Source: Colwellia sp. TT2012 (GTDB taxonomy: Bacteria > Pseudomonadota > Gammaproteobacteria > Enterobacterales > Alteromonadaceae). Taken from it: a stretch of 64,000 bases of DNA. The notes below the pieces were generated by a model, which saw nothing but the letters and a program-made list of their open reading frames with translations, ran no database searches and was not told the DNA's origin. The DNA is taken from NCBI RefSeq assembly GCF_001440345.1, contig NZ_LJYX01000019.1, positions 1-64,000 on the forward strand, in the 5' to 3' direction. This document shows, piece after piece, positions 29,443 to 52,243 of the stretch. The position numbers and the translations under genes are program-made. The number at the start of each line of letters is the position of its first letter. Position 1 is the stretch's first letter.

Positions 29443-29451
29443 TTTAAATAC

Positions 29452-31206: not shown

Positions 31207-31409
31207 TAAATTCTCTTAGATAGTAAGGCATTGACATTTTTCATTACCTAAAGGTGTTGTTTTGTTATATATTTGTTCTTAGGGTGTCAATTAAACCTAT
31301 CAAAGAGGAGGGATAAAACCATTTTTGGTTTATTAATCCAAAAAATAAAAAGTCTAAACTTCCTTAAATATAATTTATGAAATAGTTTTATTTTAGCATC
31401 CGCAAAAAA

Positions 31410-31904: not shown

Positions 31905-31913
31905 TAATGTTCC

Positions 31914-32969
31914 TTAACTTTCTATTATTAATTTTAAATGGGACGATATTTCGTTCCATGTTTTTGTCGTTGTATTTTTTCGAATAAAATCAGAATCTAG
32001 TTTATGCCGTTGATTAGTCACTCTAGATAAAGCTTCAGCAAAAGCTTGCGGGTTATCTTCACACAATTCACCATTGTATTGATTTAAAATTTTTATCTGT
32101 TCTGTTGTCGAAGTTCCTATAACAAACATACCATTTGCAATATATTCTAATGCTTTAGTTACAGGTTGCACATCGTAGTAAGTAGTTTTTGGTACGTAAG
32201 ACACCCCAATATTACAACGCTCAAAAAAGGGGGTAAGTTGGTTATGTGGGATTCGTCCATGAACCTTAACTAATTCAGATAAACCTAAAGAGGTAACTAA
32301 GCTTTTTAAATCAGCAACTTCATTGATATAGCCATCACCTACAATGTCATAACTTTCAATAATATGGTCGTGGTTTTGGTCTAGGTGTTTTTTTAAACCC
32401 ACTAAGGTATCTGTTATTTTTCGATTCGATAAAGTGCCAACATACAGCAATCTTATCGTATCAAATGTTTTATAATCCGTTGTAAACTCTGGCGAGCCTA
32501 AACCAACCACGTTGTAATTTTTAAGTTTTAATAACTTACCTAACGAATCGGAAATTACATTAATTTTTTGTGCAAAATAACTTTCAAATTTTAGCGTTTT
32601 ATTAAACAACATTCGGCTAAACCACTTAGGGTCAATCGACCCCGTTCTTACATCCATAATGAAGCATTTTTTGGGAACTACAGTTCGTAACAAAGAACAA
32701 AAACGAAAATATTTTACAAACACTAAATCATCACGCTCTTTTAAAAATGGTTTGATATGTTTAACAAAATCTAGCCACTTAAGAGCACCATTTTTATCTA
32801 TATTGATGTTTATAATTTCAATGCCTTCCTCTTCAATGAGTGGTTTTCCTGCGTTAATGCATATATACCTAATGTCATACTCACCTTTTAAATGAAGAGC
32901 GTAATAATAAGTATCGATTAAATAACCAAATTGAGAAGTACAAATAATTGTTAATTTTTTTTTCATCAA
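31914..32969 (-). CDS. Glycosyltransferase, GT4-like
   Basis: The 351-aa transferase has a divergent N-terminal domain and a recognisable GT-B C-terminal domain: LLYVGTLSNRKITDTLVGL, then VHGRIPHNQLTPFFERCNIG, and TKALEYIANGMFVIGTS as the donor-site helix. Assigned to locus A repeat-unit assembly. Its start overlaps the Wzy gene by 4 bp, indicating coupled translation. Sugar specificity is unknown. Confidence 0.85.
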   Translation of the reverse strand: MMKKKLTIICTSQFGYLIDTYYYALHLKGEYDIRYICINAGKPLIEEEGIEIININIDKNGALKWLDFVKHIKPFLKERDDLVFVKYFRFCSLLRTVVPKKCFIMDVRTGSIDPKWFSRMLFNKTLKFESYFAQKINVISDSLGKLLKLKNYNVVGLGSPEFTTDYKTFDTIRLLYVGTLSNRKITDTLVGLKKHLDQNHDHIIESYDIVGDGYINEVADLKSLVTSLGLSELVKVHGRIPHNQLTPFFERCNIGVSYVPKTTYYDVQPVTKALEYIANGMFVIGTSTTEQIKILNQYNGELCEDNPQAFAEALSRVTNQRHKLDSDFIRKNTTTKTWNEISSHLKLIIES

Positions 32970-34276
32970 GTAACTACCTCCTTACGTTGTGAACCCGTAC
33001 ACAATAGTAGGAGTATAAAAATTGAAAAAGTAACAGAGTTGATATGCATAGTATTTGAATAAAAAGGAAAGAGCATACATGCTTGTATTAAAAACAAACC
33101 ACCTGATTTAAAAGCTGTATCATAAAGGTGAATTGTTTTACGTTTAAATAATTTGATGAATAGATAACATAAAAATAAAGCTAGAATTAATACTCCGAAT
33201 AGTCCAACATCCCAAAGATATATCGTCAATTGAGATGCAGCAAAATTGATTGGCGAAGCAAAAACAACAGCTTCAATATTATTAGCGTTAGCAAATTTAG
33301 AAGACGTTAATCCGTAACCAAATAAGGTATTTAAACTAATCCCCTGTTTAACATTATTAGCAAACCAGATATCTATTGCTGCTTGCCGACTAACTTCACC
33401 CGTTGAATAATCGATTAAATCTTCTTGAGAGTAACTCTCTGATATATTAGAAATATATTCAACGACAGATCGACCTTCTCGACTTCCCGTTGAAAAATTA
33501 CTATTGTAATTAGTAACTAAAACTGCAATGAATATGGTAATAAATAACGATGAACCTAAAATTATTTTTGGCTTAAAAAATTCTTTTGGTTCAAGTATTG
33601 ATATAACAATAAATATCACTAATACAACAACTATTTTTGTTTCCATCATGAATACACTGGCAAGACAAGACAAAATAGCTAAAACATCTATGTAGGTCCC
33701 TTTTTTTAACCTTATTTTTTTGACTGCCATCGTGCAATAAAAACATAAAAAAAGTAATAAACCTGCACTATTACCACCGCCACCTTGAGGATTAAAGCCA
33801 AAAGTACCTGAGATTAAATCCCAATCAAATGTTCTAGCGGTAGAGGCTCTTGCTGTGATAAAAAACTGGCTAATAACAAAGGGTAATTGAATTAAAACTA
33901 TGAATCTGATCAGTTTATATAAAGCAGCAAGTTGCACCTGAGTTAAAATAATTCTCGATGCAATTAACATAGCGATTGAGGGTATAACATAATCTTTAAT
34001 AGCTATCGCCTTTAACGAGCCTCCGGTTAAAAATAGCCAGTTAAACCCTAAATACACTAACCAAAAAAATAAAAACAGCTGTATATTATCACTAAATAGT
34101 GGGGCTTTATTAGGGCATAACAATAATAACAATGGCACCATAGCACCTAGCCAATAAACTTGACTTACTTCTAAATAACTAGAAATTAACCCAACAAAAA
34201 TAAAATTAAAAAACATAAAAAATGGAACTATATAATATGCTTTTCTAAATGGAGCTAAGATATTAAGCAACATCAT
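32966..34276 (-). CDS. wzy: Wzy-type O-antigen/exopolysaccharide polymerase
   Basis: The 436-aa protein has about 10-12 hydrophobic segments and one large periplasmic loop (about residues 255-325, containing STGSREGRSVVEYIS), the usual topology of Wzy polymerases. Sequence conservation in this family is low, so the assignment rests on topology and on its place between Wzx and a glycosyltransferase. It would polymerise lipid-linked repeat units at the periplasmic face. It overlaps wzx by 14 bp. Confidence 0.8.
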   Translation of the reverse strand: MMLLNILAPFRKAYYIVPFFMFFNFIFVGLISSYLEVSQVYWLGAMVPLLLLLCPNKAPLFSDNIQLFLFFWLVYLGFNWLFLTGGSLKAIAIKDYVIPSIAMLIASRIILTQVQLAALYKLIRFIVLIQLPFVISQFFITARASTARTFDWDLISGTFGFNPQGGGGNSAGLLLFLCFYCTMAVKKIRLKKGTYIDVLAILSCLASVFMMETKIVVVLVIFIVISILEPKEFFKPKIILGSSLFITIFIAVLVTNYNSNFSTGSREGRSVVEYISNISESYSQEDLIDYSTGEVSRQAAIDIWFANNVKQGISLNTLFGYGLTSSKFANANNIEAVVFASPINFAASQLTIYLWDVGLFGVLILALFLCYLFIKLFKRKTIHLYDTAFKSGGLFLIQACMLFPFYSNTMHINSVTFSIFILLLLCTGSQRKEVVT

Positions 34277-35513
34277 ACTTCACCTTAATTTCGTTTGTGG
34301 TATAGGTAAAATAAATACATATAGATGCTGATATAGTAAGAGAAAAAGCAGAGGCAATTGAAAAATACCATACCCCTGTTAATAACGTTTGCTGTAAGCC
34401 GAGCCATAGAAATAGCGTAACAAAACCGGCATTAAATAATTGCCAATAATAATCGTATTTTTGTTTATCAAAGATAACGTAGACATAAGTGATCGGAGAA
34501 AAAACAACCAAAGCTAATAAATAAGGCGTTAAAGCAATAGCAAAGTTTACTGCCGGTAGCCACTCTTCCCCCATAGCAAAAGTAATTACTGGTGCACCCA
34601 GAAAAATCACACCTAAAATGTAAAGGCTCACAGCTAAGCCAGACAACACAGATATTTTCCCATAATTAACTAGAGCTCTTTTCGGAGAAACAAGTATTTC
34701 TCTTTTAATCACGTCGGCAACCGCCGCCACTATGATCACCGCAGGTGCAATAACAAATTTTACCGCTAGACTGTAATAAGCTAAAGCAGTGTTATCATCA
34801 AGTAACGTACCGACTATAATTAAAAACATGCCCCCGCTATATCGATTTAACAAATGAGCAGGAATTAAATATTTAATTACACTTTTTGCACTGATCACTA
34901 CTTGTTTGCTATCGCTAACAACCCCATCTTCTGAAACGCTGTTTACAGATTTTTTATTGAAAAGCTTAACTGGTAGTATATTGGCTAAAGCAAAAGCCAA
35001 CATGATAATAAAAGGCGATAACTCTACCAATAAAAACAAAACATAAAAAATTATTGGAAAAAATACCGCTCTGCTTATTCTTGTTAAGGCATTTGTACTA
35101 AACAGACCCTGCTTTATATTTTTCTGGATAGTGAATTCAAAATTAGCGGTAGCATATAACATGGCAAAAAATGCGAGGAATACCATTATTGGATTAGTTG
35201 CACTATCGCCAGCAATCACAAATGCCAACAACGACAGAATAAAAGCAGTGCAGAAAGTTAGCTTGCTAAAGATCGAGTCTAAAAGTCTAAATCTTGTGTC
35301 ACTAATATTAAATACGGTAAATTCTAAACGGAGCGAGACAAAAACACTCAATACAGCTGTGATAGACAGCAAATAACTATATTGACCGTATATGTCAGCG
35401 CCACTTAATTTCGCAATAAAAGGTACACTAAAAAACGAAACTAGCTGTGCTAGCATTACACCAAAACTAGTTGTAGCATAATGCTTTAGGTTATCAATTT
35501 TAAATTTACTCAA
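34263..35513 (-). CDS. wzx: Wzx-type repeat-unit flippase, locus A
   Basis: The 416-aa protein has about 12 hydrophobic segments. Its N-terminus (LKHYATTSFGVMLAQLVSF, then PFIAKLSGADIYGQYS) is typical of polysaccharide flippases of the MOP superfamily. It should move undecaprenyl-linked repeat units across the inner membrane for the Wzy protein encoded next. A second flippase of another size is at 58095-59537 for locus B. Confidence 0.9.
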   Translation of the reverse strand: MSKFKIDNLKHYATTSFGVMLAQLVSFFSVPFIAKLSGADIYGQYSYLLSITAVLSVFVSLRLEFTVFNISDTRFRLLDSIFSKLTFCTAFILSLLAFVIAGDSATNPIMVFLAFFAMLYATANFEFTIQKNIKQGLFSTNALTRISRAVFFPIIFYVLFLLVELSPFIIMLAFALANILPVKLFNKKSVNSVSEDGVVSDSKQVVISAKSVIKYLIPAHLLNRYSGGMFLIIVGTLLDDNTALAYYSLAVKFVIAPAVIIVAAVADVIKREILVSPKRALVNYGKISVLSGLAVSLYILGVIFLGAPVITFAMGEEWLPAVNFAIALTPYLLALVVFSPITYVYVIFDKQKYDYYWQLFNAGFVTLFLWLGLQQTLLTGVWYFSIASAFSLTISASICIYFTYTTNEIKVKYDVA

Positions 35514-35531
35514 AAAACAAAGCCCTTAAAA

Positions 35532-36443
35532 TTAACGATTAGATAAATCGACTGTTTTCAAAAACGCTCTCAAACCTTCACCCAACACAGGGTCAAGTAA
35601 CGAATATTCTATATTCGCTTGCAAGTAACCGAGTTTATTACCACAATCATGACTGCGACCAACAATTTTGTAAGCTTCCATTTTTTCAAGCAAAAGCAAC
35701 TGATGCATAGCATCGGTAAGTTGAATTTCGTCGCCAGCACCTGGGGGGGTAAAGGCAAGTAAATCCCATATCTTGCTTGAAAGTACATAACGACCCGTTA
35801 TTGCTAAATTTGACGGTGCTTCGTCTAAACTTGGCTTTTCAACCATGTTGGTGATGGTGGCAAATTCAGACGCTTTAAGTTGTACGCCGTTAATGTCGAC
35901 CACACCGTAATTACTTACCTCTTGCTCGGGTACTTCTTCAACCATTACTTGGCTAATATTAGTTTGTTCAAACCTTTGTACCATTTGGGTTAGGTTGTCT
36001 TTCTTTAAATCGGAATGGTATTTGTCGATCAATACATCGGGCAGCATAACAACAAAAGGATTGTCGCCAATAATAGGTCTAGCGCATAAAATGGCATGGC
36101 CTAAACCTAAGGCGTTAGATTGCCTAACCGAAATAACGTTGGTGCCTTTTGGCGTAATGCTGCGCACTTCTGCTAGCAGTGAGCGTTTAACCCGTTTTTC
36201 AAGCTGAGCTTCAAGTTCAAAACTTTTGTCAAAATGATTTTCAATGGCATTTTTACTTGAGTGAGTTACTAAAACTATATTTTTAATGCCCGCGGCTGCG
36301 GCTTCTTCCACTACGTATTGAATTAATGGTTTATCAACTACGCTAAGCATTTCTTTGGGTATAGCTTTGGTGGCAGGTAACATGCGTGTGCCAAGCCCGG
36401 CTACCGGGATTACTGCTGTGGTGATTTTATTGGTCATTGTCAT
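35532..36443 (-). CDS. galU: UTP-glucose-1-phosphate uridylyltransferase
   Basis: The 303-aa cytoplasmic enzyme makes UDP-glucose. Motifs: [20 protein letters not shown] (residues 10-29, the nucleotidyl-binding signature), [25 protein letters not shown], and [15 protein letters not shown]. Length matches E. coli GalU (302). It supplies glucose donor for the WcaJ-type initiator and other transferases of locus A. It lies 18 bp upstream of wzx in the same direction. Confidence 0.96.
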
Positions 36444-36619: not shown

Positions 36620-37795
36620 TCAGTCATTGCTCAATCGTTTTTTTAATGCTGATTTCACATATAACCACTGTAAGGCTAACGGCCTTAAAACACTGCCTGA
36701 AAAAACAAACTGGGCAATTATTTGGTTTACTCTATACCTTAAGGGCTTTGTGTTTCCTATCGGTTGTGTAAACCGTGACTTTAGTAATTTAACCATTATT
36801 TTATACATTATAAGGTTTGGTTTTATCTGTTGTAGTAAGTCGCCGTTACGCTCACTGTTGTTCTTGTTCTTGCTCTTGCTCTTATTATCAAGATTAGTGC
36901 CCATGATCTCAGTGCAATTTTTCAATAGTACAAATAAGGCGGTACTTACGCCCCATTGTTTGGCTATTACTATGGTTTGTTTAATGTCTGCTTGCTGAGC
37001 ATTAATTATTTCATGGCTGTCTACTAAATTATATTTACAAAAATCCATATCTTTATAGGCATGAAGCGCTTGATGAATTAAGGCATGCTCTGGCGATAAC
37101 ATTCTAACCAGCTGATTATTAAAACTGGGATGCTCAACACTCTCTTGCCAGAGTTGCACTTCATCAATATTAAATAACAATGGATTTATCAATGACGCAT
37201 GTAAATCAACTGCCGCGCCTATTTTTCCTTTAGGTATAAAAGACAGTTCATATAAATCGCCAAATACATCTGCTTGCGCTTTTTCTGTATATTTCATCAA
37301 TGTTTTAATCAGTGCAACTGCTTTATGCCAATGCTGCTTTTGAATAAGTATGTCTAAGTCATTTGATGGTCTTGGCGCTTGTGGGCTATATAATACCTCA
37401 GCAAAGGCAGCCCCTTTTAGTAAAATTAGCGGAATATTATCTTCAGACAATGCTGCAATTATATTATTCAGCTGCTTTTTACTCGCTAACTCGGTCACTA
37501 TGCCTTGTTGCGTACCAAGCATTAATATCTTTTGACTTTCCGCAGATAAGGCATTAAAAATAGCTAACTTATGCGCTTTATCATTAAGCAGCGGTATTAA
37601 GCGTTTATGCACTTTTTGCTTATGTTCTTCATGAAAGAAAGGCAATTGATTAAGTATCGTAATGGCTTTCTTTCGATCAATAACATCACTGTCTACACCT
37701 TCACTGACTCGTGCTAAGCGCAGCAATTGAAAATAGCTTTCATTGTGCTTTTTTACAAAATCGAGCGATGAATATGCCATGGCCTTTATCGGCAT
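36620..37795 (-). CDS. Nucleotidyltransferase-family protein of the lasso-peptide accessory type
   Basis: The 391-aa protein has the uncharacterised nucleotidyltransferase domain (PF14907 type). IPLILLKGAAFAEVLY is followed by RPSNDLDILI, whose Asp146 and Asp148 are the expected metal ligands, with a helical C-terminal half. Such genes recur with HPr-kinase-like genes in lasso-peptide clusters of the paeninodin type and in some exopolysaccharide loci. Here it lies downstream of, and probably in one transcript with, the precursor, the kinase and the WcaJ gene. The reaction is not known. Confidence 0.8.
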   Translation of the reverse strand: MPIKAMAYSSLDFVKKHNESYFQLLRLARVSEGVDSDVIDRKKAITILNQLPFFHEEHKQKVHKRLIPLLNDKAHKLAIFNALSAESQKILMLGTQQGIVTELASKKQLNNIIAALSEDNIPLILLKGAAFAEVLYSPQAPRPSNDLDILIQKQHWHKAVALIKTLMKYTEKAQADVFGDLYELSFIPKGKIGAAVDLHASLINPLLFNIDEVQLWQESVEHPSFNNQLVRMLSPEHALIHQALHAYKDMDFCKYNLVDSHEIINAQQADIKQTIVIAKQWGVSTALFVLLKNCTEIMGTNLDNKSKSKNKNNSERNGDLLQQIKPNLIMYKIMVKLLKSRFTQPIGNTKPLRYRVNQIIAQFVFSGSVLRPLALQWLYVKSALKKRLSND

Positions 37796-37847
37796 ACTAA
37801 TAATCCATTACCGCCACAAAAATTCATTTCTGTCATAAGCATTGCCA

Positions 37848-39251
37848 TTAATAAGCATTTTTATCATTGAACGATCTAAAAATAGTAAATAATACTATTT
37901 TAAAGTCGAACCATAATGACCAACGTCGCATATATTCAATATCAAATTTAATGCGCATTTCCATTTTTTCTAGGGTGTCGGTTTCACCGCGCCAACCATT
38001 AACTTGTGCCCAGCCGGTAATGCCTGGTTTTACTTTATGGCGCAGCATGTAAAAACTGATTTCTTTACGATATTGTTCGTTATGCGCTACCGCGTGAGGC
38101 CTTGGCCCTACTACCGACATATCACCTTTCAATACATTAAAAAACTGTGGTAGTTCATCTAACGAGGTGCGGCGTAAAAAAGCACCCAACGGGGTAATAC
38201 GGGCATCTCCTTTGGTTGCTTGCACAACTTTAGCGCCGTTTTCGGCAACTGTCATTGAGCGAAATTTCCACACTTTAATTTTTTTACCGTCTAAGCCGTA
38301 GCGGTCTTGTTTAAACAATACGGGGCCACGAGAGGTACGCTTAATAGCCACCGCAATCACTAGCATCGGTATAGCAATTAACAAAAGGATAATAGTAGAA
38401 AGCACTAGGTCTTCAATACGCTTTAATATGGTGGCTGCGCCTTGCATTGGGTTTTCAAAGATACTAACGGTTTGTATTTCACCGACATGGTTAATAGAAG
38501 CGTTAATGATGCTATGCATAAATTTATCAGGCACTAATTCAACATTAGCGGTGGTATTGCCTAATTGATGTAATATTTTTGATAGTCGCTCTTGTGCTAT
38601 GGTCGGTAAACCGATATAAACTTTGTCAAATTCATTGTTTTTAGCACGCTCAACCCCATCGGCAATAGTACCTTCAAGTAAGTGATGATAAGTCGAGTCT
38701 ACTCGGTCTTTTTCGCGGTCTTCAAAAATAGCCGCCACTCTAAAACCTGTTTCGGGTTGCTGTAATATTTCACTCACTAAAGCTCGAGTACTTGCTGTTA
38801 AGCCTAAAATAGCGATACTGCGGGTGTTATGGCCTTTTTTACGTATATAGGCAAGAAACAGCGCAAAGATATAACGCCAAGTCACCAAACTGATAAAGGT
38901 GAATACAAACCAAATGGCCAGGGTAATCCGAGAAAAGTCTTCACTGATTTTAGAGAAGACTAAGAAGATCAATACAGCAATAGCGCTGATTGCCCAAGAA
39001 ATAAAACAATAAAACATTATTTCTTTAAAAGAGCCGGCGCGCCAAGAGCGATATAATGCAAAGGATTCTGAAGCGAGAAAAAAAGCAAGGGAAGCGATGA
39101 GTGCAATAACAAAATATTGCTGGCTATAAGCAAGACCGTAACCCAACAATGAGAGAACCAACACGGCTTGGATGATTATAAAGTCAACTAAACGATAAAA
39201 TATTGCAAACGTATTGGCGCTACTTCTGATTAACCCTGTACTTTTAACCAT
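37848..39251 (-). CDS. Undecaprenyl-phosphate glucose phosphotransferase (WcaJ/VpsL type), locus A
   Basis: The 467-aa polyprenyl-phosphate hexose-1-phosphate transferase starts repeat-unit synthesis. Four N-terminal TM segments (about 20-120) are followed by a nucleotide-binding-like domain (SIAILGLTAS, FEDREKDR). The C-terminal catalytic part has another TM and [38 protein letters not shown] and [10 protein letters not shown], ending NDKNAY. It is closely similar in its C-terminal half to the locus B copy at 53486-54886. It lies between the lasso kinase and nucleotidyltransferase genes. Confidence 0.94.
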   Translation of the reverse strand: MVKSTGLIRSSANTFAIFYRLVDFIIIQAVLVLSLLGYGLAYSQQYFVIALIASLAFFLASESFALYRSWRAGSFKEIMFYCFISWAISAIAVLIFLVFSKISEDFSRITLAIWFVFTFISLVTWRYIFALFLAYIRKKGHNTRSIAILGLTASTRALVSEILQQPETGFRVAAIFEDREKDRVDSTYHHLLEGTIADGVERAKNNEFDKVYIGLPTIAQERLSKILHQLGNTTANVELVPDKFMHSIINASINHVGEIQTVSIFENPMQGAATILKRIEDLVLSTIILLLIAIPMLVIAVAIKRTSRGPVLFKQDRYGLDGKKIKVWKFRSMTVAENGAKVVQATKGDARITPLGAFLRRTSLDELPQFFNVLKGDMSVVGPRPHAVAHNEQYRKEISFYMLRHKVKPGITGWAQVNGWRGETDTLEKMEMRIKFDIEYMRRWSLWFDFKIVLFTIFRSFNDKNAY

Positions 39252-39367
39252 AATTTTTCTTTATACCCTTTTTCACAGTTAATAAGCAGCTATTGAAATA
39301 GCCATAACTACTTTACTTACCCTAATACCTGTAACTGTGATTGTTGTCTTCTTGTTATGTTGGTAAT

Positions 39368-40444
39368 TTACAAGTTGATGTCTTGCTTGATTTTTTCAGC
39401 TACGTTAAACAAGTTTTTTTTACCACTTGAATAGCTAAGCTGTTTAAAATTTATATTATTTAATAGCTTGGCTAGGGCTACTACCCGTTTACCTTCTATT
39501 CCTAGTGCGCTATATGCACTTCCTAATATACTATTTTGCAGTAAAATAATGACTGCTTGTGCGGCTGGTATGTCGCTTATAGTACAAAAGGCTTCCTTGT
39601 CACTTTGTGCAGTTATTGTTTCATGCCTTTGTAACAAATATATTACTTTTAATTTTTTAGGCTCAGCGCAAAAGTTAAAACTAATATTTTCGTTATTGGT
39701 GCTGCTGTTATCTATGCTGTTGTTATTCATGGTGACAATGCGTTTAGCAAAGTTTTCATGTACCTTTTCACATGCTACGCTGTTTTCCCCTACTAACTCT
39801 GCTAACGAGTCTGGCCACATTCTTGCCACTGGCCAACTAGGGTAAACGGTATAGTCATTTTTTTCGTCGTCATAATGTAATGCCATCATGTCGTCGGTCA
39901 TTAACCCAAAGCCTTGTTGGCTTAATGCTGCTGTTAATGTTGTTTTACCCGTTCTACTGGGAGCAACAAAGGCGATAGCCTTATCTTGATAAGCTAACAC
40001 GTTTGCATGAATACAAAGTACGTTGTTTAATTCTAAATTTAAGGCAAGCGCTAAGGTTTGAAAATAATGATCCGCTCCGGTACCTTGAGCTTGCCAGTCT
40101 ATGGTTATATTAGTTTTTGATACTTTAAATGAACCAGTTCCTTGGCAATTAATATTCAAATAATAGCTAGCGTCTACGCTCTTATTGGCAGCAAAACCAT
40201 CTGAATCTAAATAAGGTTCATTTGAAGTCGCTTTATATAAACTAACTTCACTATGATAACGTTCACCTTCGTCTATCATCGACCATATTGGTTTCAACGT
40301 TTCATCAACAGTAAAATGAGAAAAACTCAAGGTAATTTCAAGCGGTAACTCCTGTTTATTAGCCCCACAAAAAGGCACACAGAAAACACCGTGAAGTGGT
40401 AATTTAAATAAATTATTCATTAGAAATTTTTTATAGTATTCCAT
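39368..40444 (-). CDS. HPr-kinase-like protein of the lasso-peptide cluster (K protein)
   Basis: The 358-aa protein has the C-terminal HPr-kinase/phosphorylase fold: Walker A APSRTGKTTL (161-170) following CIHANVLAYQDKAIAFV, then LMTDDMMAL as the metal/base region. In paeninodin-type clusters such kinases phosphorylate the lasso precursor. It starts 37 bp after the precursor stop, on the same strand. ATG 40444 is used; ATG 40420 is an alternative. The predicted lasso core here ends in Gly, not Ser, so the phospho-acceptor is unclear. Confidence 0.82.
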   Translation of the reverse strand: MEYYKKFLMNNLFKLPLHGVFCVPFCGANKQELPLEITLSFSHFTVDETLKPIWSMIDEGERYHSEVSLYKATSNEPYLDSDGFAANKSVDASYYLNINCQGTGSFKVSKTNITIDWQAQGTGADHYFQTLALALNLELNNVLCIHANVLAYQDKAIAFVAPSRTGKTTLTAALSQQGFGLMTDDMMALHYDDEKNDYTVYPSWPVARMWPDSLAELVGENSVACEKVHENFAKRIVTMNNNSIDNSSTNNENISFNFCAEPKKLKVIYLLQRHETITAQSDKEAFCTISDIPAAQAVIILLQNSILGSAYSALGIEGKRVVALAKLLNNINFKQLSYSSGKKNLFNVAEKIKQDINL

Positions 40445-40481
40445 GCCCCTACGCTAATAGAGGCGATGAAATATAAACAAT

Positions 40482-40652
40482 TTAACCTTGGAAAGGGTTC
40501 CGTTTGGTGTGACCACCTTGCTCGTCTGGAATGCTTCCAGCAAAACCTTGAGTTAAGTCAGCTAAACTACCGGCACTTTTCAATACCGGTTTAGTGTAAA
40601 CCGCTTTACTCGCAACAGATTGTTGTTGGGTGTTTTTACATTTGTTGTTCAT
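40482..40652 (-). CDS. Lasso peptide precursor (A peptide)
   Basis: The 56-aa product begins MNNKCKNTQQQSVASK. The leader part YTKPVLKSAGSLADLTQ then matches the lasso leader pattern YxxPxLxxxGxxxxxTxG, with Thr at -2. Cleavage after Gln35 leaves a 21-residue core starting GFAGSIPDEQGG and ending HTKRNPFQG. Gly1 can form the macrolactam with Asp8 (8-membered) or Glu9 (9-membered). The start codon is 5 nt past the stop of a PEP-CTERM gene, with AGGGAAG upstream. The cyclase, B1, B2, ABC exporter, kinase and nucleotidyltransferase genes all lie within 6 kb. The frame is too short for default gene calling. Confidence 0.9.
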   Translation of the reverse strand: MNNKCKNTQQQSVASKAVYTKPVLKSAGSLADLTQGFAGSIPDEQGGHTKRNPFQG

Positions 40653-40657
40653 TTCAA

Positions 40658-41281
40658 TCACTTCCCTGAAGATTTTTTACGTAAACTGGTTAATGCGATA
40701 AGGCCTAAGGCAAAAGTAAACATTGTTGACGGCTCTGGTATTTCAGCTCTGTCGGTGTCAGTTAAAAATTCCAACTGTTCTTTAATATTTAGATTAAAAC
40801 CTGCAATTCCCATAATACCAAACAAATCTGGGCTACTATAAACATCTGAAAAAGTCGCAAGATCTGAACCAGCATTTGAATCAAAAGGACGACCCGCTTC
40901 AGAGCCCAGTGTACTTGTTGCAGTACCTGGCAGTATATCAAAGTAGAAATCAGCAATACCTGCATTAACCGTTAGTCCGACAATTCCATCGGCAACGCTC
41001 AAATTCTTTAATACCCATAGACCATAAAAGGTGTCCGTACTCTTATCAAAATCACCGAAGGTATTACCATCTAGCATTAATGACCAAGACCTTGTTGATA
41101 CGCCTCCTGATGTAGAAGAAAATGCCGACCAAACTTGAGTGTCTTGTGTGCCATCGCCGAAAAGTGCTGTTATCTCTATGCCTACCATATCAGCACCAGT
41201 AACGTTACTATTAATCAAGGTAGCTTGTGTAAACAAACTAGTAGATAGAAGAACCATCCCTAGCATCCATTTCTTCAACAT
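40658..41281 (-). CDS. PEP-CTERM protein upstream of the lasso precursor
   Basis: The 207-aa secreted protein has a signal peptide (MLKKWMLGMVLLSTSLFTQA). Its C-terminal sorting signal is IPEPSTMFTFALGLIALT, then a basic SLRKKSS tail, as recognised by exosortases. The middle part is Gly/Ser/Asp-rich with no domain I know. GGAG lies 7 nt before ATG 41281, and a sigma-54-type promoter lies 49 bp upstream. The gene is directly followed by the lasso precursor, so the two probably share a transcript. No exosortase gene is present in this window. Confidence 0.9.
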   Translation of the reverse strand: MLKKWMLGMVLLSTSLFTQATLINSNVTGADMVGIEITALFGDGTQDTQVWSAFSSTSGGVSTRSWSLMLDGNTFGDFDKSTDTFYGLWVLKNLSVADGIVGLTVNAGIADFYFDILPGTATSTLGSEAGRPFDSNAGSDLATFSDVYSSPDLFGIMGIAGFNLNIKEQLEFLTDTDRAEIPEPSTMFTFALGLIALTSLRKKSSGK

Positions 41282-41329
41282 TTGTATACTCCATTCAATT
41301 ACTATAAATTCTGTTCAATACCAGCCTTA

Positions 41330-41345
41330 AGCAAGAATCAAGCCA
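41330..41345 (-). promoter_or_regulatory. Sigma-54 (-24/-12) type promoter of the PEP-CTERM/lasso precursor operon
   Basis: On the minus strand, TGGCTTGATTCTTGCT fits TGGCACG-N4-TTGCW at 9 of 11 specified bases with exact spacing. It is 49 bp before the PEP-CTERM start codon, giving a leader of about 40 nt. Confidence 0.65.
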
Positions 41346-41598
41346 TAAAACAAATAAACTTAAATATCAACTAACTACAAGTTACAGCTGGTTTTTCATT
41401 TTCGAATAGCAAGGTCTATGTAAAGAAATTCGACACTTATTTCAGTAAATATTAACGACGCTAATTTGTACAAAAAGATTATGGCCCGTATCATAACCGA
41501 TTAAAGATGACTTTTTAATGACAATTCACAAAAAACATTACAAGATGTGCATATTTTTTACATTTGTACGTATCTCTTAACTTATTCTCAAGGTATAC

Positions 41599-43488
41599 AT
41601 GGACAACCTTTTTGCAATTATCATCCCTCACAATAAACACAATAAAGCTAATGGTATATTTAACCATAACTTAACTTGCACTCTATTTGATAATTCATCG
41701 TCAGCTTCAATCGAAGTTCCTAATAAAAATAATTTTATTTATTTAGCTAAATACTCAAATAAAACGACAAACATTAGTAATAACAGCCAGCCGACTAAAC
41801 AGATTTTAGCAATGCCCATAACGGGTCATTTTAGAGTCGATAATAAGGATGATTTGGCCGCGATATGTAAAGCTGATTTAAGTAATAAAAATCAGTTTTC
41901 ATCAAAAGATGAGCACGCTTTTTTTACCACTTATAAAAAGTTGGGAGCTGCATGTTTTTCGAAAATTAAAGGTAACTTTCAAACTGTATTTTGGGATGAA
42001 CAATCTCAAAAATTATGTGCTGCAATAGACCCGTTCAGCAGCCGTTCATTATTTTATCTTGAATTAAGCGGTGTTTTATACCTTTCTTCTGACGCAAAAA
42101 CACTGGCAACTATTACTAACATTAAGCTAACGGTAAATAAAGTTGCCATTAGTCAGTGGTTGGCTGGACGCCCTACCCCTAATATCTGCATGTTTAATGA
42201 AATATCTAGACTACCTTCTGGACACTACTTAGAGTACAACGAAGAACAAGGGGTTAAAATCACTAAGTTTTGGGATATAGATCCTAATTTTTCTATTAAT
42301 TATAACGATACTGAGCAGTATAAATCTCACTTTTTTGAACTGCTAAAGACAAGTGTTGAAAGCCGACTCAGTACTGAACACTCGACCACAAAGCCTACTG
42401 TTTTTTGTCAAATGAGTGGCGGAATGGATTCAACATCGGTAACAGCAATAGCCAAGCAATTTATGGATGGAAAAAATCAACCATTGCATACCTTGTCTCA
42501 CCGATATAAAAACACCCAAACCTGTGATGAAAGCACGAATATAAATAATATGATCTCTACGCTTGGCTTAGAGCACCAATATTACATTGACCTAGATGAG
42601 TATGAATCAAGTTCATTTAGTCAGTTATACCCCACTGATTTTGATAGCCCTGGAATAGTTCTTTCTCCAAAGTATCATCAAGAGCTAGCGTTAATGCATA
42701 GCTTAGGTACAAACGTACTGTTAACCGGTAATGGCGGCGATGAAACCTGTTGGGGACATAGCGCGTCATACCGTTCTCGTTTGTTTAAAGGAGAGTTTGG
42801 CGTAATTAGTGAGGTCATTAAGGCTTGCAACGAGCTAAATGAACCTGTTGCACGTTCATTATATAAACTGTTTATGCCCAGTAGTATTCAAAATTTAGTT
42901 AAGCTAGCAAGACAAAAGCCTATTAATACTAACGAATGCCCTCCGTGGTTATCGCCTCAAGCTTTAATGAATGTGTCAGCTGAAAATCAACTTTTTACCA
43001 ACCCTTTCTCGGCAAGCTTTGATCCGGCGAAGCATGCTAGATATCATGGTTTAAACACTACATCGACCTACAATGCTATGCGTTCATATCAAAAAGTGGC
43101 AAGTGATTACGGTATTGATGTTCGTCATCCCTTTTTTGATGCTGATATTGTCAAGTTCAGTTTTGCCATTCCAGAAAAGCTTCTTATCCAGGGAGCTTAT
43201 CCTAAGTGGCTGTTAAGGCAAACTATGCAAGCATATTTACCTGCATCAGTTTGCTGGAATAAACACAAAGTAGTGTTTGATCACCACTTTGCTAATTTGA
43301 TTCGGGCTAATAAGGTTGAGTTACGTAAACTATTATCTCATTCAGGTTTACAAGATTTAGGCCTAGTGAATAATACCGTTTTATTAAGTGAATTTGATGC
43401 GGTTGTTAATAATCCAGACAGCTACTTAAATGTAGACATGTTATATGCAATTTTGACACAGCTATGGTTTCAAACTCATTGTATATAG
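41599..43488 (+). CDS. Lasso peptide cyclase (asparagine-synthetase-like, C protein)
   Basis: This 629-aa homologue of asparagine synthetase B has the ATP-pyrophosphatase loop MSGGMDSTS (about 272-280) and the later TGNGGDETCWGH segment. The N-terminal glutaminase half is degenerate and begins MDN rather than with the catalytic Cys2, as in lasso cyclases that adenylate the ring Asp/Glu side chain. It would join the amino group of core Gly1 to Asp8 or Glu9. It is transcribed divergently from the precursor operon and convergently with the B2/B1/D genes. Confidence 0.9.
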   Translation: MDNLFAIIIPHNKHNKANGIFNHNLTCTLFDNSSSASIEVPNKNNFIYLAKYSNKTTNISNNSQPTKQILAMPITGHFRVDNKDDLAAICKADLSNKNQFSSKDEHAFFTTYKKLGAACFSKIKGNFQTVFWDEQSQKLCAAIDPFSSRSLFYLELSGVLYLSSDAKTLATITNIKLTVNKVAISQWLAGRPTPNICMFNEISRLPSGHYLEYNEEQGVKITKFWDIDPNFSINYNDTEQYKSHFFELLKTSVESRLSTEHSTTKPTVFCQMSGGMDSTSVTAIAKQFMDGKNQPLHTLSHRYKNTQTCDESTNINNMISTLGLEHQYYIDLDEYESSSFSQLYPTDFDSPGIVLSPKYHQELALMHSLGTNVLLTGNGGDETCWGHSASYRSRLFKGEFGVISEVIKACNELNEPVARSLYKLFMPSSIQNLVKLARQKPINTNECPPWLSPQALMNVSAENQLFTNPFSASFDPAKHARYHGLNTTSTYNAMRSYQKVASDYGIDVRHPFFDADIVKFSFAIPEKLLIQGAYPKWLLRQTMQAYLPASVCWNKHKVVFDHHFANLIRANKVELRKLLSHSGLQDLGLVNNTVLLSEFDAVVNNPDSYLNVDMLYAILTQLWFQTHCI

Positions 43489-43521
43489 CCATCGAGGCAA
43501 GCATCGACCTACGCGTAAATG

Positions 43522-43992
43522 TTATTTAAGAGTATTTAGTATAACTTGCTCATTATTTACTTTTAATTCACTATAACGGCTCGTTACTGCTTCACTGTCA
43601 TTAATGATTTTTCCTTGAACCGTTAGCCAAACATGGGCGAGTAATTTTTCTTTTTCGAAGCGGACTCCTATGTGCATTTGAGCACTGAAACCTCGCTTTT
43701 TAAGTATTTGCTGTTGTGATATACATCTACGCAAGCAGTTCATTTTTCTTAGCTGAAAGCGAGCTGAAATTTCACTCAGTTTAATAATTAGCTTGATTTG
43801 TTTAACTTGTGTCGCATCACTTAGGTTTACATTGGCGTCGTTGCTGTTTGCTGAGAGGCTTATTTGATTCCGCCAATTGTCGTACTCTGTAAATGAAATT
43901 AATAAGTCCCACTTTACAAAAGTAAACCATGCTTCGAGTAACAGCCCTAACTCTTTAAGAGTAAATTTACCGAGTTTAGCTAAACTAGCCAT
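43522..43992 (-). CDS. Lasso peptide leader protease (B2, transglutaminase-like)
   Basis: The 156-aa protein of the transglutaminase-like lasso B2 family cuts the leader from the precursor. The candidate catalytic set is Cys86 (NCLRRCISQQQILKKRGF), His120 (LLAHVWL) and Asp132 (IINDSE). The frame is open to a TTG at 44016, but ATG 43992 overlaps the B1 stop codon by 8 bp and is preferred, giving coupled translation with B1. It works with the B1 protein, which holds the leader. Confidence 0.87.
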   Translation of the reverse strand: MASLAKLGKFTLKELGLLLEAWFTFVKWDLLISFTEYDNWRNQISLSANSNDANVNLSDATQVKQIKLIIKLSEISARFQLRKMNCLRRCISQQQILKKRGFSAQMHIGVRFEKEKLLAHVWLTVQGKIINDSEAVTSRYSELKVNNEQVILNTLK

Positions 43993-44281
43993 GATTACTA
44001 TCAACTTTACTGTCAACGCTAACTAATAATCCCTGCTTGAGCATTTGAGCCAGTAGCTCTTCTATATCTTGGCTAACTTCAGCCTTGCTCACTTGATATT
44101 TTTCCAGCACTAAGTCAATAACTTTACTTTTAGCATAGCCTTGTTGAAGTTGCTCTACCATAAAAGTAGCAATAGCATTAAGGGTGTAATACTCCCCTGT
44201 TTCGGGCTCTAAGATTACCGTTTCTTCTGCTACTTTTTGGAAAAGTACATCTTCAGCTAATTGGTAGCTAACTTGACTCAT
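43985..44281 (-). CDS. PqqD-like leader-recognition protein (lasso B1)
   Basis: The 98-aa protein has the PqqD/RRE winged-helix fold: VILEPETGEYYTLNAIATF in the first half and YQVSKAEVSQDIEELLAQM in the second. In lasso systems the free-standing B1 protein binds the leader (through the conserved Tyr and Pro of YxxP) and presents it to B2. It overlaps the exporter gene by 14 bp and B2 by 8 bp, an operon order D-B1-B2. Confidence 0.92.
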   Translation of the reverse strand: MSQVSYQLAEDVLFQKVAEETVILEPETGEYYTLNAIATFMVEQLQQGYAKSKVIDLVLEKYQVSKAEVSQDIEELLAQMLKQGLLVSVDSKVDSNHG

Positions 44282-45992
44282 TTGACATTACTTCCTTTGT
44301 ATTCATTTTGGTTATTGGTCTGGCTATTAATTGATGATCTTTCATTATGAAAACTTGATCTGCAATATCAGCCAAGCTTGGTTCATGGCTGACCATAATA
44401 ACAGTTTTGTTTTTTAAAACTTCATAAAACCGGTGTTTAAAGTCAGCCATTGCTTCACTGTCGAACATTGAGGTAGGCTCGTCTAACAGCAAAATCTTAG
44501 GATCAGTCATCAGTGCTCGAGCAAATGAAATTCGTTGCCGTTGCCCGCCTGAAAGTAACACCCCATTTTCTCCTACTTGAGTTTGATAGCCATTCTCAAG
44601 CTCAGATATAAACTGATGTGCCCCTGCTTTTTTAGCTGCTTGTTCTATCTCATCAAAACTTGCTTGAGGATAACCAAACGCTATGTTGTCAGCTACTGTG
44701 CCACTGCACAAGGCTATGTCTTGTGAAACAAGGCCTATGTTACGTCTTAACTCTGATAAATTAAAGTGACTAATAGGTTTACCGCCAATGCTTATTTGTC
44801 CTGCTATTGGCTCTATAAACCGTACTAACAAATGTAATAAAGTAGACTTACCTGTGCCATTAGGACCAAGAATAATAACGGTTTGTTTTGGCTGAATATC
44901 AATATTTACCTTTATCAGTAATTGCTCGTTTGGTTCATAACTAAAACTTACATTTTTAAAAGAAATTACGCCACTAAGATCATTGTCCGTTGTGGTGTCG
45001 CTGCCCGTTATATCTTCATGCGAATGATTACTCGATTCCTGAGAGGCACTAAAGATTTGATCAAGTCTATTCGATGCGCCTAGCGCTTGTTGTGTTTGCC
45101 CGTATAGGTTTGCTAAAGCGCTCATTGGCCTAGCGAATAACATACCGTACATTAACAAGGTGATAAGGTCTGGCATGGTCAAATCGCCTGACTGATAATG
45201 CATGGCACTGACAACAACTACAATCAATACCCCAGTAGAGACTAATAATTGAATTACGGGCGATAGAATAGCTTGAATTTTTAATTGCTGTTTTCTTAAT
45301 TTTTGGATTTCATGTGCATTGGCTTTAAAACGATTAGACTCGTTTTGCTCGCGAGAGAAAGCTTTCACTAACTTTATGATGCTTAAATTTTCACTCGCAA
45401 TAGCCAATGAATCGGCTTGTCGTTGCACTAAGTTTTCACTAATAGGCCTTATGCCTCTACCAAGTAGTTTTAACACCACAAAAAATGCAGGCACCATTAA
45501 TATGATGATTAAGGTAATAGTAATATTGATTGATGCCATTAAAATTAGCGCACCAAATGAAATGAGTAAGGCTGGCACTAAGCCGGTGAGTACACCAGAA
45601 AGGAAATAGCTGATAATGGTAACATCGTTACTTAACAGTGCTAATGTTTCACCCTTTTTGGTGTTAGTGAAGTATTTAACAGGTAATCGTTGAATGTGAT
45701 CATACAAGCGACAACTTAGTTCGGTGAGCATTTTTGCGCCAATAAAGTTTACTTTGTAAGTTGATAAGAACCTCAACAATGCTTGCAAAACAAAGAAAGA
45801 CAACCAAATAAGCGCAATTTGAATATAACTGAGGTTAAATATAGTTTTGTCATCAAGAATTGACTCTGAAAATTTCCCCGCAAACCAAGGTACAGATAAA
45901 CTCACTAAACTTTCGACCACCATTAATGCAATAGCGACTAATAAAGGTAATTTATGATTTTTAAGTAAATTGAAAAAATGATAGAGAGTCAT
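44268..45992 (-). CDS. ABC exporter of the lasso peptide (D protein)
   Basis: This 574-aa ABC half-transporter has six TM segments (about 15-290) and a nucleotide-binding domain with Walker A GPNGTGKST (376-384), signature LSGGQRQRISFARAL and Walker B ILLLDEPTS. No N-terminal C39 peptidase is present, as expected when B2 removes the leader. It is likely to export the mature lasso peptide and give self-immunity. It is the first gene of the D-B1-B2 operon, with a strong terminator 88 bp upstream that separates it from remnants to the right. Confidence 0.93.
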   Translation of the reverse strand: MTLYHFFNLLKNHKLPLLVAIALMVVESLVSLSVPWFAGKFSESILDDKTIFNLSYIQIALIWLSFFVLQALLRFLSTYKVNFIGAKMLTELSCRLYDHIQRLPVKYFTNTKKGETLALLSNDVTIISYFLSGVLTGLVPALLISFGALILMASINITITLIIILMVPAFFVVLKLLGRGIRPISENLVQRQADSLAIASENLSIIKLVKAFSREQNESNRFKANAHEIQKLRKQQLKIQAILSPVIQLLVSTGVLIVVVVSAMHYQSGDLTMPDLITLLMYGMLFARPMSALANLYGQTQQALGASNRLDQIFSASQESSNHSHEDITGSDTTTDNDLSGVISFKNVSFSYEPNEQLLIKVNIDIQPKQTVIILGPNGTGKSTLLHLLVRFIEPIAGQISIGGKPISHFNLSELRRNIGLVSQDIALCSGTVADNIAFGYPQASFDEIEQAAKKAGAHQFISELENGYQTQVGENGVLLSGGQRQRISFARALMTDPKILLLDEPTSMFDSEAMADFKHRFYEVLKNKTVIMVSHEPSLADIADQVFIMKDHQLIARPITKMNTKEVMSNESS

Positions 45993-48695: not shown

Positions 48696-49424
48696 CTAGA
48701 GTTCAAACAAGCTAGCGGTAATATTATAAGGATTGTCGTAAAACAATTTTTGTGCTTGCTCTTCGCCAAATAATTCGGTAATTTTTCTTCGGGCTTTACT
48801 TAACAAAGGCGGTCTACGTTTAAGGTTATGGGCATCACTGGCAACGATTTGAATGAGATCTTGCTCAATATAGCTTAAGGCAAGCGCTTGACAGTCTTCG
48901 CCAAAATGGCCGGTAATAGAGCTTGCTGTTACTTGAAACCAACAGCCTAATCGAGCAAATGGCTTAATTTTATCGGGTGACTTTAATAAATCACGATTAC
49001 GTTCAGGATGGGCAATAACAGGAGTAATATTATGTTTAAGTAAATGTTTAACTAAAAGTTCACTGCCGGCAGGGATATGGCTATGAGGAAACTCAAGTAA
49101 CATAAACTGCTGATTATTATAACGTCCGTACAAAGGTAACTGATTACTAGCGAGCAAGGAGAGTATCTCAGAATCTAACCGTACTTCCGCGGCATAAGCT
49201 AATTCTACCTGAATTTTTTCCTTATTAACTTCTTCCTGCAAAGCTAAAAAAGACGACTCTATCACGGGTAAGTAATTATTAAATCGGCCAAAATGCAAAT
49301 GCGGCGTAACAACAATGCGTGTTACACCATCTTCAACGGCTAAGTTAATTAAGGCAAGTGCCTCAACCATATCTTTAGCGCCATCATCAATACCTGGTAA
49401 AATATGGCAATGAATATCTATCAT
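48696..49424 (-). CDS. CpsB/YwqE-type protein-tyrosine phosphatase (PHP domain), locus B
   Basis: The 242-aa paralogue of the 22044-22772 protein has the same metal motifs: MIDIHCHILPGIDDGA, TPHLHFGRF, AHPERN and ASDAHN. It should dephosphorylate the BY-kinase encoded 3 bp upstream. The near-overlap of start and stop indicates coupled translation. It is the same length as the locus A copy but clearly diverged. Confidence 0.93.
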   Translation of the reverse strand: MIDIHCHILPGIDDGAKDMVEALALINLAVEDGVTRIVVTPHLHFGRFNNYLPVIESSFLALQEEVNKEKIQVELAYAAEVRLDSEILSLLASNQLPLYGRYNNQQFMLLEFPHSHIPAGSELLVKHLLKHNITPVIAHPERNRDLLKSPDKIKPFARLGCWFQVTASSITGHFGEDCQALALSYIEQDLIQIVASDAHNLKRRPPLLSKARRKITELFGEEQAQKLFYDNPYNITASLFEL

Positions 49425-49427
49425 GGC

Positions 49428-51701
49428 TTAACTTTCTTTTTCTTTACCGTAACTATAATCACTGTAATAGCCATGATAATTATCGCTCGAAGCCATTTTT
49501 TTCATATCAACTTTATTTAACACTACACCGGCAATATTAGCGTTTAGGTTAACTAATCGCCCAATGCCGTCTTGAACAGCACCAATACGGGTATCATCAC
49601 TTTTAACAACATATATTACTGCGTCAGATTGCTGAGCAATAACTAAAGAGTCGCTTACTGCTTGTACAGGTGGTGTATCAATAATAATACGGTCGTAGGA
49701 TTTTTTAAGGTGCGTTAATATAATTGCAAATTTAGGTGATAATAATAATTCAAGCGGGTTAGAAGGGATTGGGCCACAAGGCATAATAGTTAACCCTGAT
49801 TTTTCATCTTGATAAATACAATCAGCAAACTGCTCGGTACCCGTAATTAAATTGCTCAAACCCGGATGATAAAGCGGTATATTAAAACGCTTGCAAATAC
49901 TCGGTTTACGCATATCTGCATCAATTAAAATGGTTTTTTCAACTTGTGCTAACGAAAAAGCCAAATTGGTAGCCGTTGTTGTTTTACCTTCACCGGGAAC
50001 CGTTGACGTTATTTCAATAACTTTAGACGCTTTATCCAACTGCGTTAGCACAAAACTAGTACGTAGCGTACGCACCGACTCGGAGAATTTATCTGCACCC
50101 TCTTCAAAAAAGTAATGCACCTTTAAGGCAACATTTTTCTTCAACGCCACTAACGGTAATAGGCCTAACATACGCTGTGAAAGTTTATTTTCAATATCAC
50201 TTGCGGTTTTAAAGGTGTCATTTAAAGCATCAAGTACAAACGCAATAACAATACCGAAGCCAAAAGTAGCAATAAAAGCTAAAATAACCAGTAAGGGTTT
50301 GTTTGGCTTTATCGGGTTAGTGGTTTTATAAGCACGGTCGGTAAACCGAGCAACAGCTGCATTGAAATCACCCGTTACTTCTGTTTCTTTAGCGCGAGAA
50401 AAAAAGGTATCATAAATATTGCGATTAGTATCCACTTCACGCGACAGTTTTCTGTATTGGTATTCTTTCGATGTTATTTCACGATACACTTTTTTAATAC
50501 GTGTTAGTTCTATTTCAAGTGCTTGCACATTACGCTTGCTGGTCTTTAACTCTTTTTGAACACCGGTCACTAAACGTTGAACCTGCAAAGAAAGATTTTT
50601 CTGTACTGATAATAGCTCAGCTTTTGCTGCAATTAGTTTTGGGTGTTTCGGCCCATAAACACCGAATAAATCTGATAATTTAAGCTCAGAAGTGACTAAC
50701 GTTCTTTTAATATCTTGTATAGCACGGTGTGAAGTTATATCAGGTATAGACTGTAGTACTTCCAAGTTGTTACGACCGTATTCATCAATAACACGGATAA
50801 TACTCTCTAATTTGTTTTTTTCATTTCTAGCAACCACTAACTGTACTGAGGTTTGTTCCAATTCTTTTGAAACTAAGCCCAACACACCCGAAATATCAAT
50901 CAGGTTTTCGCTCTCTAAGTATTGCTGCAATTTGTATTCAGACTCATCAAGCCTTATACGTAAGTCAGACAAGCGGGTAGTTAACCAGCCCGAAGCCTCT
51001 TTCGTTACCCCCATTTTATCTATTAAATGTTGCTCAATATAAACTTCACCGACAGTATTAGTCACTAAGGCTGCCAATTTAGGATCACTACTTTGGAAAG
51101 AAATATGCACTAACTGAGTTTTTCGTATTGGGTTTATGGTTAATCGATGAGTAAAAGCACTGACTAGCGCCTGTAAGGCCTTTTCTTCTTGTTCTATGAT
51201 AGATAACGTTACCGCTTTCTTTTTAGGAATAAAAGGTAGTGATTGTTTAACCTCATTAATAAAAGCACGAACAACTGAAGGTTTATCAATAAAGTCTGGG
51301 TGTTCTTTTAAGTTTAATTTTTCTATCACTGCTTGGGCAATAGTTCTTGATTTTAAAATTTCAAATTGTGTGAGATAATATTCTTTGCGATTAGAGTCTA
51401 AGCCATACACTTCTGCAAACGATACCGCTTTATTTTGTTGCGACTCTATCAGTAACGTCGCGGTAGAGCGATAAATCGGCGTCATATTTAAGGCAATAAC
51501 AGCCGTTAGTAATGCAACCAGAATAGCTAAAGAAGCAATACGCCATAGGTATTTTTTAAATACTGAAAAATAATGGCGTAAATCAATATCCTCTTCGATT
51601 GATTGATTACTTCTCGACTGAAAGCCGACAGACTTAGCCACTGTTTGGGTTTTATCACTAGCAGGAAGAGGAATCTCGCTGGCTATATTACTATTTATCA
51701 T
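49428..51701 (-). CDS. Wzc-type tyrosine autokinase/co-polymerase (VpsO type), locus B
   Basis: The 757-aa protein has a Wzz domain between TM segments near residues 54-74 and about 480-500, with coiled-coil stretches in between. The C-terminal BY-kinase has Walker A STVPGEGKTT, Walker A' LIDADMRKPS and Walker B IIIDTPP. The tyrosine-rich tail is YHGYYSDYSYGKEKES. It works with the Wza-type protein (stop/start overlap by one base at 51701) and the phosphatase. It differs from the locus A kinase in the P-loop and tail, so the two are old paralogues. Confidence 0.96.
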   Translation of the reverse strand: MINSNIASEIPLPASDKTQTVAKSVGFQSRSNQSIEEDIDLRHYFSVFKKYLWRIASLAILVALLTAVIALNMTPIYRSTATLLIESQQNKAVSFAEVYGLDSNRKEYYLTQFEILKSRTIAQAVIEKLNLKEHPDFIDKPSVVRAFINEVKQSLPFIPKKKAVTLSIIEQEEKALQALVSAFTHRLTINPIRKTQLVHISFQSSDPKLAALVTNTVGEVYIEQHLIDKMGVTKEASGWLTTRLSDLRIRLDESEYKLQQYLESENLIDISGVLGLVSKELEQTSVQLVVARNEKNKLESIIRVIDEYGRNNLEVLQSIPDITSHRAIQDIKRTLVTSELKLSDLFGVYGPKHPKLIAAKAELLSVQKNLSLQVQRLVTGVQKELKTSKRNVQALEIELTRIKKVYREITSKEYQYRKLSREVDTNRNIYDTFFSRAKETEVTGDFNAAVARFTDRAYKTTNPIKPNKPLLVILAFIATFGFGIVIAFVLDALNDTFKTASDIENKLSQRMLGLLPLVALKKNVALKVHYFFEEGADKFSESVRTLRTSFVLTQLDKASKVIEITSTVPGEGKTTTATNLAFSLAQVEKTILIDADMRKPSICKRFNIPLYHPGLSNLITGTEQFADCIYQDEKSGLTIMPCGPIPSNPLELLLSPKFAIILTHLKKSYDRIIIDTPPVQAVSDSLVIAQQSDAVIYVVKSDDTRIGAVQDGIGRLVNLNANIAGVVLNKVDMKKMASSDNYHGYYSDYSYGKEKES

Positions 51702-52237: not shown

Positions 52238-52243
52238 AGGTCT

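Follow-up and report, generated by a model that had tools for sequence, protein, structure and literature searches.

A stretch of 64,000 nucleotides from Colwellia sp. TT2012 (contig NZ_LJYX01000019.1, positions 1 to 64,000; this whole stretch is called the window below) carries a gene cluster that, judged from its sequence, very probably encodes one 21-residue lasso peptide, predicted to belong to class II because it has no cysteines. From the gene neighbourhood, the operon structure and the conservation, there is about an even chance that this conserved, exported peptide works together with a PEP-CTERM protein of its own, either within the exopolysaccharide matrix or on the cell surface; as a single functional reading this is ranked best, ahead of those in which the peptide is an antimicrobial, a signal or a passenger.

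The precursor (gene A), which an earlier note made from the letters of the window had proposed as a hidden 56-codon frame, lies at 40482..40652 on the minus strand (56 AA plus stop), with residues 1-35 forming the leader and residues 36-56 the core, GFAGSIPDEQGGHTKRNPFQG. The leader pattern Y19..P22.L24...G28.....T34.G36, with its Thr at -2 and the 21-residue core, can be read directly from the translation, just as had been claimed, and the NCBIfam lasso leader model NF033521 recognizes it (20.2 bits, against a cut-off of 19). The core begins with Gly1, has acids at positions 8 and 9 and contains no Cys; either Asp8 or Glu9 may be the ring acid, since both residues are invariant, and the Pro-acid pair at 7-8 may resemble that of the caulosegnin and benenodin rings. 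For the predicted threaded macrolactam (core minus one water), an [M+H]+ of 2182.042 and an [M+2H]2+ of 1091.525 have been computed, and a phosphorylated form would be heavier by 79.966. The same masses apply to Catenovulum agarivorans YM01 (L048/L078), a cultured carrier whose core is identical to that of the window.

The other members of a lasso cluster lie around it in the order D-B1-B2 (45992-43522, minus), C (41599-43488, plus), then the PEP-CTERM gene, precursor, kinase, WcaJ-type transferase and nucleotidyltransferase (41281-36620, minus), with the cyclase on the strand opposite to every other cluster gene in the window. The ABC exporter D (44268..45992, minus) has matches to PF00664 and PF00005 only, peptidase C39 being absent among its Pfam matches, and B1, the PqqD-like leader-binding protein or RRE (43985..44281, minus), matches PF05402. 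The leader protease B2 (43522..44016, minus) is transglutaminase-like, with Cys-His-Asp present, and passes NF033537 (52.3 bits, cut-off 33); the 629 AA cyclase C (41599..43488, plus) is Asn-synthetase-like with the ATP-pyrophosphatase motif SGGMDS, its match to NF033535 (229.7 bits) falling below the cut-off of 525. Conserved in the relatives are both the Cys-His-Asp residues of B2 and the SGGxDS motif of the cyclase, which we take to be catalytic. Kinase K (39368..40444, minus), of the HPr-kinase/PEPCK fold, has no Pfam match and only a partial one to TIGR04352 (39 bits, cut-off 200). Between it and the nucleotidyltransferase gene sits a WcaJ-type undecaprenyl-phosphate glucose phosphotransferase, which starts an exopolysaccharide repeat unit (37848..39251, minus; TIGR03023 537 bits, cut-off 410.75); the PF14907 nucleotidyltransferase-like protein itself (36620..37795, minus; Pfam E 1.8e-29) is PsmN-like by annotation only and has a blastp match in 9 of the 37 related loci defined below. 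The complete lasso cluster described in the earlier note, with its exporter lacking a C39 domain, its HPr-kinase-like protein and its PF14907-type protein, is thus borne out part by part; its account of the gene surroundings, right in the genes that it named, overlooked the PEP-CTERM partner as well as the setting among exopolysaccharide genes, and these lead us to see the likely purpose of the peptide differently. Rfam found nothing in the window or in four related loci, and near the precursor a promoter scan came out below chance and a terminator scan near chance.

When 395 genomes of the same family (its own included) were searched with the cyclase, the result was sharply two-peaked: 22 genomes, again counting its own, matched at E 1.1e-119 or better, and the next lay at 6.4e-26. 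A leader-pattern search that ignored the core, spanning 14-20 kb around each of the 21 other cyclases, found a precursor with a nearly identical 21-residue core near all 21, which rules out a chance open reading frame (ORF) and places the frame alongside B1, B2 and C across the relatives, the point on which the earlier note had let its claim depend. In 18 of the 21, B1 and B2 belong to the locus too; L051 and L054 end beside C, and L052 is without B1/B2. Somewhere in the genome B2 is present in 21 of the 22 carriers, though G675 and G539 have it well away from the cluster, and it was not found in genome G558, whose cluster contig stops next to C. For all 32 precursors whose locus includes C, C is opposite in strand to A.

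In an alignment of 25 precursors (24 from the 21 cyclase-relative loci plus the window's own), 14 of the 21 core positions are invariant; the cyclases differ at a mean of 58% of positions (19 loci). Over 300 pairs, the ratio of nonsynonymous to synonymous differences (pN/pS) is 0.09 in the core versus 0.31 in the adjacent 18 leader codons, and pS is near saturation in both (0.72 core, 0.74 leader), so that very recent spread is ruled out as the cause of core identity; older transfers of the cluster may have occurred. In a cyclase tree of 27 rows made by a quick method, most genera cohere and, of the named rows, those of Colwellia stand nearest to the window, with rows named Alteromonas in more than one place and a Flavobacteriales-named metagenome-assembled genome (MAG) pairing with a Chromatiales MAG. 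Scanning 84,980 species genomes yielded 35 loci, some of them in Reinekea and in MAGs assigned to Chromatiales, Methylothermaceae, Sedimenticola and Flavobacteriales; the scan used core patterns, so that core identity is there by selection in these 35 but not in the 21 cyclase-relative loci. Sixteen of the 35 (the other 19 being the same contigs) make up, with those 21, the set of 37 loci, which contain 43 precursors. A class-wide draw had the system in 2 of 369 genomes (G000, G881) and leader-only matches in two more. The weak precursor-profile matches of the class search, G979 and G785, were rejected as other lasso clusters (L102, L103) with unrelated cores and only the leader in common; G785 has two consecutive precursors, frames ending in Ser, near a protein PF14907-like by eye. 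As bait over the order B1 was insensitive (6 of 394 genomes, only G000 and G121 clear), and the precursor had no match in a plasmid collection.

Directly ahead of the precursor, its stop 5 nt before the precursor ATG in the window, is the gene for a 207 AA PEP-CTERM-like protein (40658..41281, minus), which matches PF07589 (24.0 bits, cut-off 20.7) and TIGR02595 (18.8, cut-off 16). This partner is laid out as an N-terminal helix (signal), an all-beta domain at about residues 22-180, a DTD motif, a PEP motif, a C-terminal helix and a basic tail, and its AlphaFold model (pLDDT 91) likewise has an all-beta domain flanked by N-terminal and C-terminal helices; Foldseek gave no confident PDB match to the fold (best E 0.048), nor did the partner profile find a confident structure match (best E 0.92). 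A partner gene is immediately upstream of 39 of the 43 precursors, with a spacing of -41 to 30 nt by mechanical starts; L084, where a long mechanical ORF start falls inside the partner gene, is counted as having one. Several genomes (L055, L072, L073, L056, L087) have more than one precursor, the cores being almost identical, mostly each with its own diverged partner gene and some of them dispersed, L087 being a dispersed partner-precursor pair without B1, B2, C or D.

At E 1e-5 a profile built from 40 partners matched 35 genomes out of the 395, and in 26 the match reached 2e-47 or better. These 26 are all 22 cyclase carriers, whose matches are by construction as they supplied profile rows, together with G742 (a fragment with a precursor), G571, G726 and G495; among the 373 cyclase-less genomes a strong match is thus found in just four, one being the precursor-bearing fragment. 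The remaining nine genomes match more weakly, four of one genus at 1e-24 to 1e-26, with no precursor in their short loci, and five near 1e-6 in the C-terminal part only. Judged by these comparisons, the partners form a family of their own, of narrow distribution and with a conserved F.DTD motif, genetically tied to the lasso precursor. In G571, G726 and G495 (L151, L148, L152) there is a partner gene with no precursor alongside and no kinase in the genome, and in L151 and L148 the WcaJ-type gene still follows the partner, as if the lasso part had been lost or never gained. An exosortase is encoded in the genome (G000, E 2.0e-72). On the other strand, next to the exporter gene, a second PEP-CTERM protein of 180 AA is encoded (47022-47564, plus; PF07589 E 2.6e-7).

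Polysaccharide genes are found on both flanks of the lasso cluster, which therefore appears nested in an exopolysaccharide locus. Of the ten downstream window proteins six have a Pfam match, all of polysaccharide-synthesis kinds: these exopolysaccharide-type genes (23959..36443, minus) include a PF00483 protein that we read as GalU (35532-36443, minus), glycosyltransferases, a hexapeptide transferase and an epimerase/dehydrogenase, and a protein without a Pfam match (34263-35513, minus) reads as flippase-like. Nine of the ten upstream window proteins have a Pfam match, among them the second PEP-CTERM protein and a set of export and polymerization genes (48696..59537, minus) with CpsB (48696-49424), Wzz/kinase (49428-51701), Wza (51701-52237), a porin (52244-53428), a second WcaJ-type transferase (53486-54886) and Wzx (58095-59537), all on the minus strand. 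The two WcaJ-type initiating transferases of this one locus (37848-39251 and 53486-54886, both minus) perhaps belong to two adjacent exopolysaccharide pathways.

The same context recurs, with exopolysaccharide-type genes in 32 of the 37 loci and a WcaJ relative in 26. In L063 and L084 the WcaJ-type gene has moved upstream of exporter D and the kinase gene is inverted; in three MAG loci (L089, L098, L099) K is followed instead by a PF00953 transferase, which we take to be an initiating transferase family. L064 and L080 have an operon without the kinase, in which export or CpsB genes come after the precursor (CpsB in both, and in L064, whose genome is G404, also a porin, Wza and Wzz), and L097 has a glycosyltransferase. 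No exopolysaccharide-type gene was found in L055, L072, L082 and L087 within the DNA examined (L072 and L082 are short); L060 has only a GalU-type match at 23% identity, and in L074, on the same contig as L055, a WcaJ match lies further out. Among 20 further downstream ORFs of 13 loci, Pfam placed 14 in exopolysaccharide kinds (sugar-nucleotide enzymes, transferases, sulfotransferases and one Wzy), the other six being four without a match (one of them, in L097, probably spurious over K), one BNR-repeat and one HD/PAS protein. In 19 loci the pairwise divergence of C tracks that of the PEP partner (r 0.87), K (0.81) and WcaJ (0.75).

The motifs C.HAN, S.TGK and DDM of kinase K are read as the His-Lys-Asp-Asp set of the lasso kinases, a motif named in PMC9266682. 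With the profile of K as query, the HPr kinase 3tqf comes up (E 1.8e-4). The folds that match its model (pLDDT 88) are likewise those of HPr kinase and PEPCK, with a best E of 1.4e-5 and a TM by target of at most 0.59. Among 38 chosen genomes K is found in 22 of 22 carriers, in G742 and in none of 15 others; 20 of the 22 carriers had supplied the rows of this profile, G555 and G404 having given none, and in G555 K is on another contig, in G404 about 20 kb off with one stop in the match. A C-terminal Ser does not serve as the phosphorylation site here: each of the 25 aligned cores has Gly as its last residue, so that the kinase would have to act on a different site. K probably phosphorylates the precursor at such a non-C-terminal site. 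Within the core, Ser5 alone among the hydroxyl residues is invariant; the leader has two such residues, Thr-2 and one Tyr.

Taken together, B1 would deliver the leader, B2 would cleave after Thr-2/Gln-1, C would close Gly1 onto Asp8 (or Glu9) and D would export the knot, with K phosphorylating the precursor away from the C terminus, where Ser5 is the sole invariant hydroxyl candidate in the core. In the operon, the kinase gene is usually followed by that of the transferase starting the exopolysaccharide repeat. Outside the cell, the peptide may act with the beta protein of PEP-CTERM type whose gene lies directly upstream, probably being the ligand or cargo of that protein, and would be a fixed part of the exopolysaccharide matrix or of a cell-surface assembly, not a fast-changing weapon. 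PMC9850573 describes PepA, a PEP-CTERM protein of Aquincola, as shifting exopolysaccharide from soluble to cell-bound, which makes a role in the matrix plausible, though it is no evidence for the lasso-partner family itself. A bolder form, on balance doubtful, has the lasso as a structural pin or linker of the matrix and no antibiotic, phosphorylated by the HPr-kinase-fold enzyme at a new non-terminal site, and either borne by the PEP-CTERM protein or locked onto it.

Several observations weigh against a matrix or surface role. The peptide is known here from genes alone, and many unrelated genes gather in exopolysaccharide loci. The linkage is incomplete: of the 37 loci, some on short contigs, 23 showed B1/B2 and 21 showed D; three long ones, L052, L067 and L096, are without B1, B2 and D near the precursor (L096 also without C), so that maturation genes can evidently be unlinked, and D alone is missing in the long locus L045. 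Four of the 43 precursors have no partner directly upstream (L055 4015, L056 12966, L073 4668, L094 1483); these are extra copies adjoining K in the Alteromonas/Marisediminitalea/Aestuariibacter group, the sequence before the L055 one being partly masked. Conversely, three of the 26 genomes with a strong partner match (G571, G726, G495) have no precursor in the 3.6 kb examined. The general PEP-CTERM model is matched at E <= 0.01 by only 21 of 40 partners (Pfam) or 19 of 40 (NCBIfam), the remaining half or so having PAP/SEP/SAP/NAP-like motifs in place of PEP, and the partners have a mean column identity of 32%, far below the conservation of the peptide, so that the partner need not be its binding target. 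An exosortase does not discriminate either, as it is present in 21 of 22 carriers (G503 lacks it) but also in 22 of 22 non-carriers.

It would be unlikely, though within reach, that the peptide is an ordinary bacteriocin-like antimicrobial, the PEP-CTERM protein serving for immunity or as a surface shield, with the exopolysaccharide genes as chance neighbours. Many lasso peptides of known activity are antimicrobial. The exporter D is present as it is in the microcin J25 cluster described in PMC11006600, and lasso clusters of Colwellia and Cycloclasticus MAGs are interpreted as antimicrobial in PMC8125074. Arms-race peptides, however, would not be expected to have a core near-constant across genera, or to be kept as two or three copies of nearly one core per genome (L055, L056, L072, L073), and chance neighbours would not recur as the exopolysaccharide genes do. 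Just as improbable is a secreted signal at which the cell itself, or its kin, would produce or release exopolysaccharide, with the partner as receptor or co-factor. One nearly fixed sequence, an exporter and an operon shared with exopolysaccharide genes would suit it; bacterial signals, though, usually diversify between species, and among the 20 window neighbours and the 20 downstream ORFs of relatives there is no sensor kinase, TonB receptor or lasso isopeptidase, apart from the one HD/PAS protein (L055), no dedicated search having been made. That the lasso genes travel as passengers in exopolysaccharide islands, which accumulate cargo of unrelated kinds, so that the PEP-precursor pairing has no functional meaning, is very unlikely: the cluster is indeed patchy (22 of 395 genomes), G571 and G726 have PEP and WcaJ-type genes without a precursor, and B1/B2/D are unlinked in some genomes, but even highly diverged relatives keep the order of the genes and the opposed C, K is retained even where unlinked, and PEP-precursor pairs recur as repeated units, some of them dispersed (L055, L072, L073, L087).

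In a literature search that lay mostly outside subscription papers and preprints, nothing linking lasso peptides to PEP-CTERM proteins was found (where both 'lasso peptide' and 'PEP-CTERM' occurred, the latter stood solely in a reference title), nor any of six core strings. The native role of most lasso peptides is, to our knowledge, unknown; a near-frozen peptide that goes with a single family of surface proteins and with exopolysaccharide operons offers a direct, testable route to a non-antibiotic one. It also raises a question of enzymology, namely what an HPr-kinase-like lasso kinase targets when the C-terminal Ser is absent, and the PEP-CTERM/exosortase field would gain a small-molecule partner.

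Among known systems, the PEP-CTERM/exosortase surface proteins of exopolysaccharide producers, such as PepA of Aquincola, resemble the partner in their signal-like N terminus, PEP-like motif, C-terminal helix and basic tail, and in the exopolysaccharide locus and genomic exosortase that accompany them; the partner family differs in being narrow and tied to a lasso precursor, with the F.DTD motif and with motif variants in about half of its members. Kinase-type clusters such as those of paeninodin (PadeK), ThcoK, SyanK and pseudomycoidin (PsmK, PsmN) likewise have an HPr-kinase-like protein with His-Lys-Asp-Asp, and the PF14907 protein of some loci here shares the annotation of PsmN, though PadeK, ThcoK, SyanK and PsmK, according to PMC9266682, modify a conserved C-terminal Ser where the 25 cores here have Gly. 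With the class II lasso peptides made by split B1/B2 the cluster shares the leader pattern Y..P.L...G.....T.G, Gly1, the acids at 8 and 9, the lack of Cys, and the whole set of PqqD-like B1, transglutaminase-like B2, Asn-synthetase-like C and ABC exporter D; unlike them, it has a core that is near-invariant over many genera, a PEP-CTERM gene preceding the precursor, an exopolysaccharide operon around it, and a C gene that runs opposite to the precursor in 32 of 32 cases.

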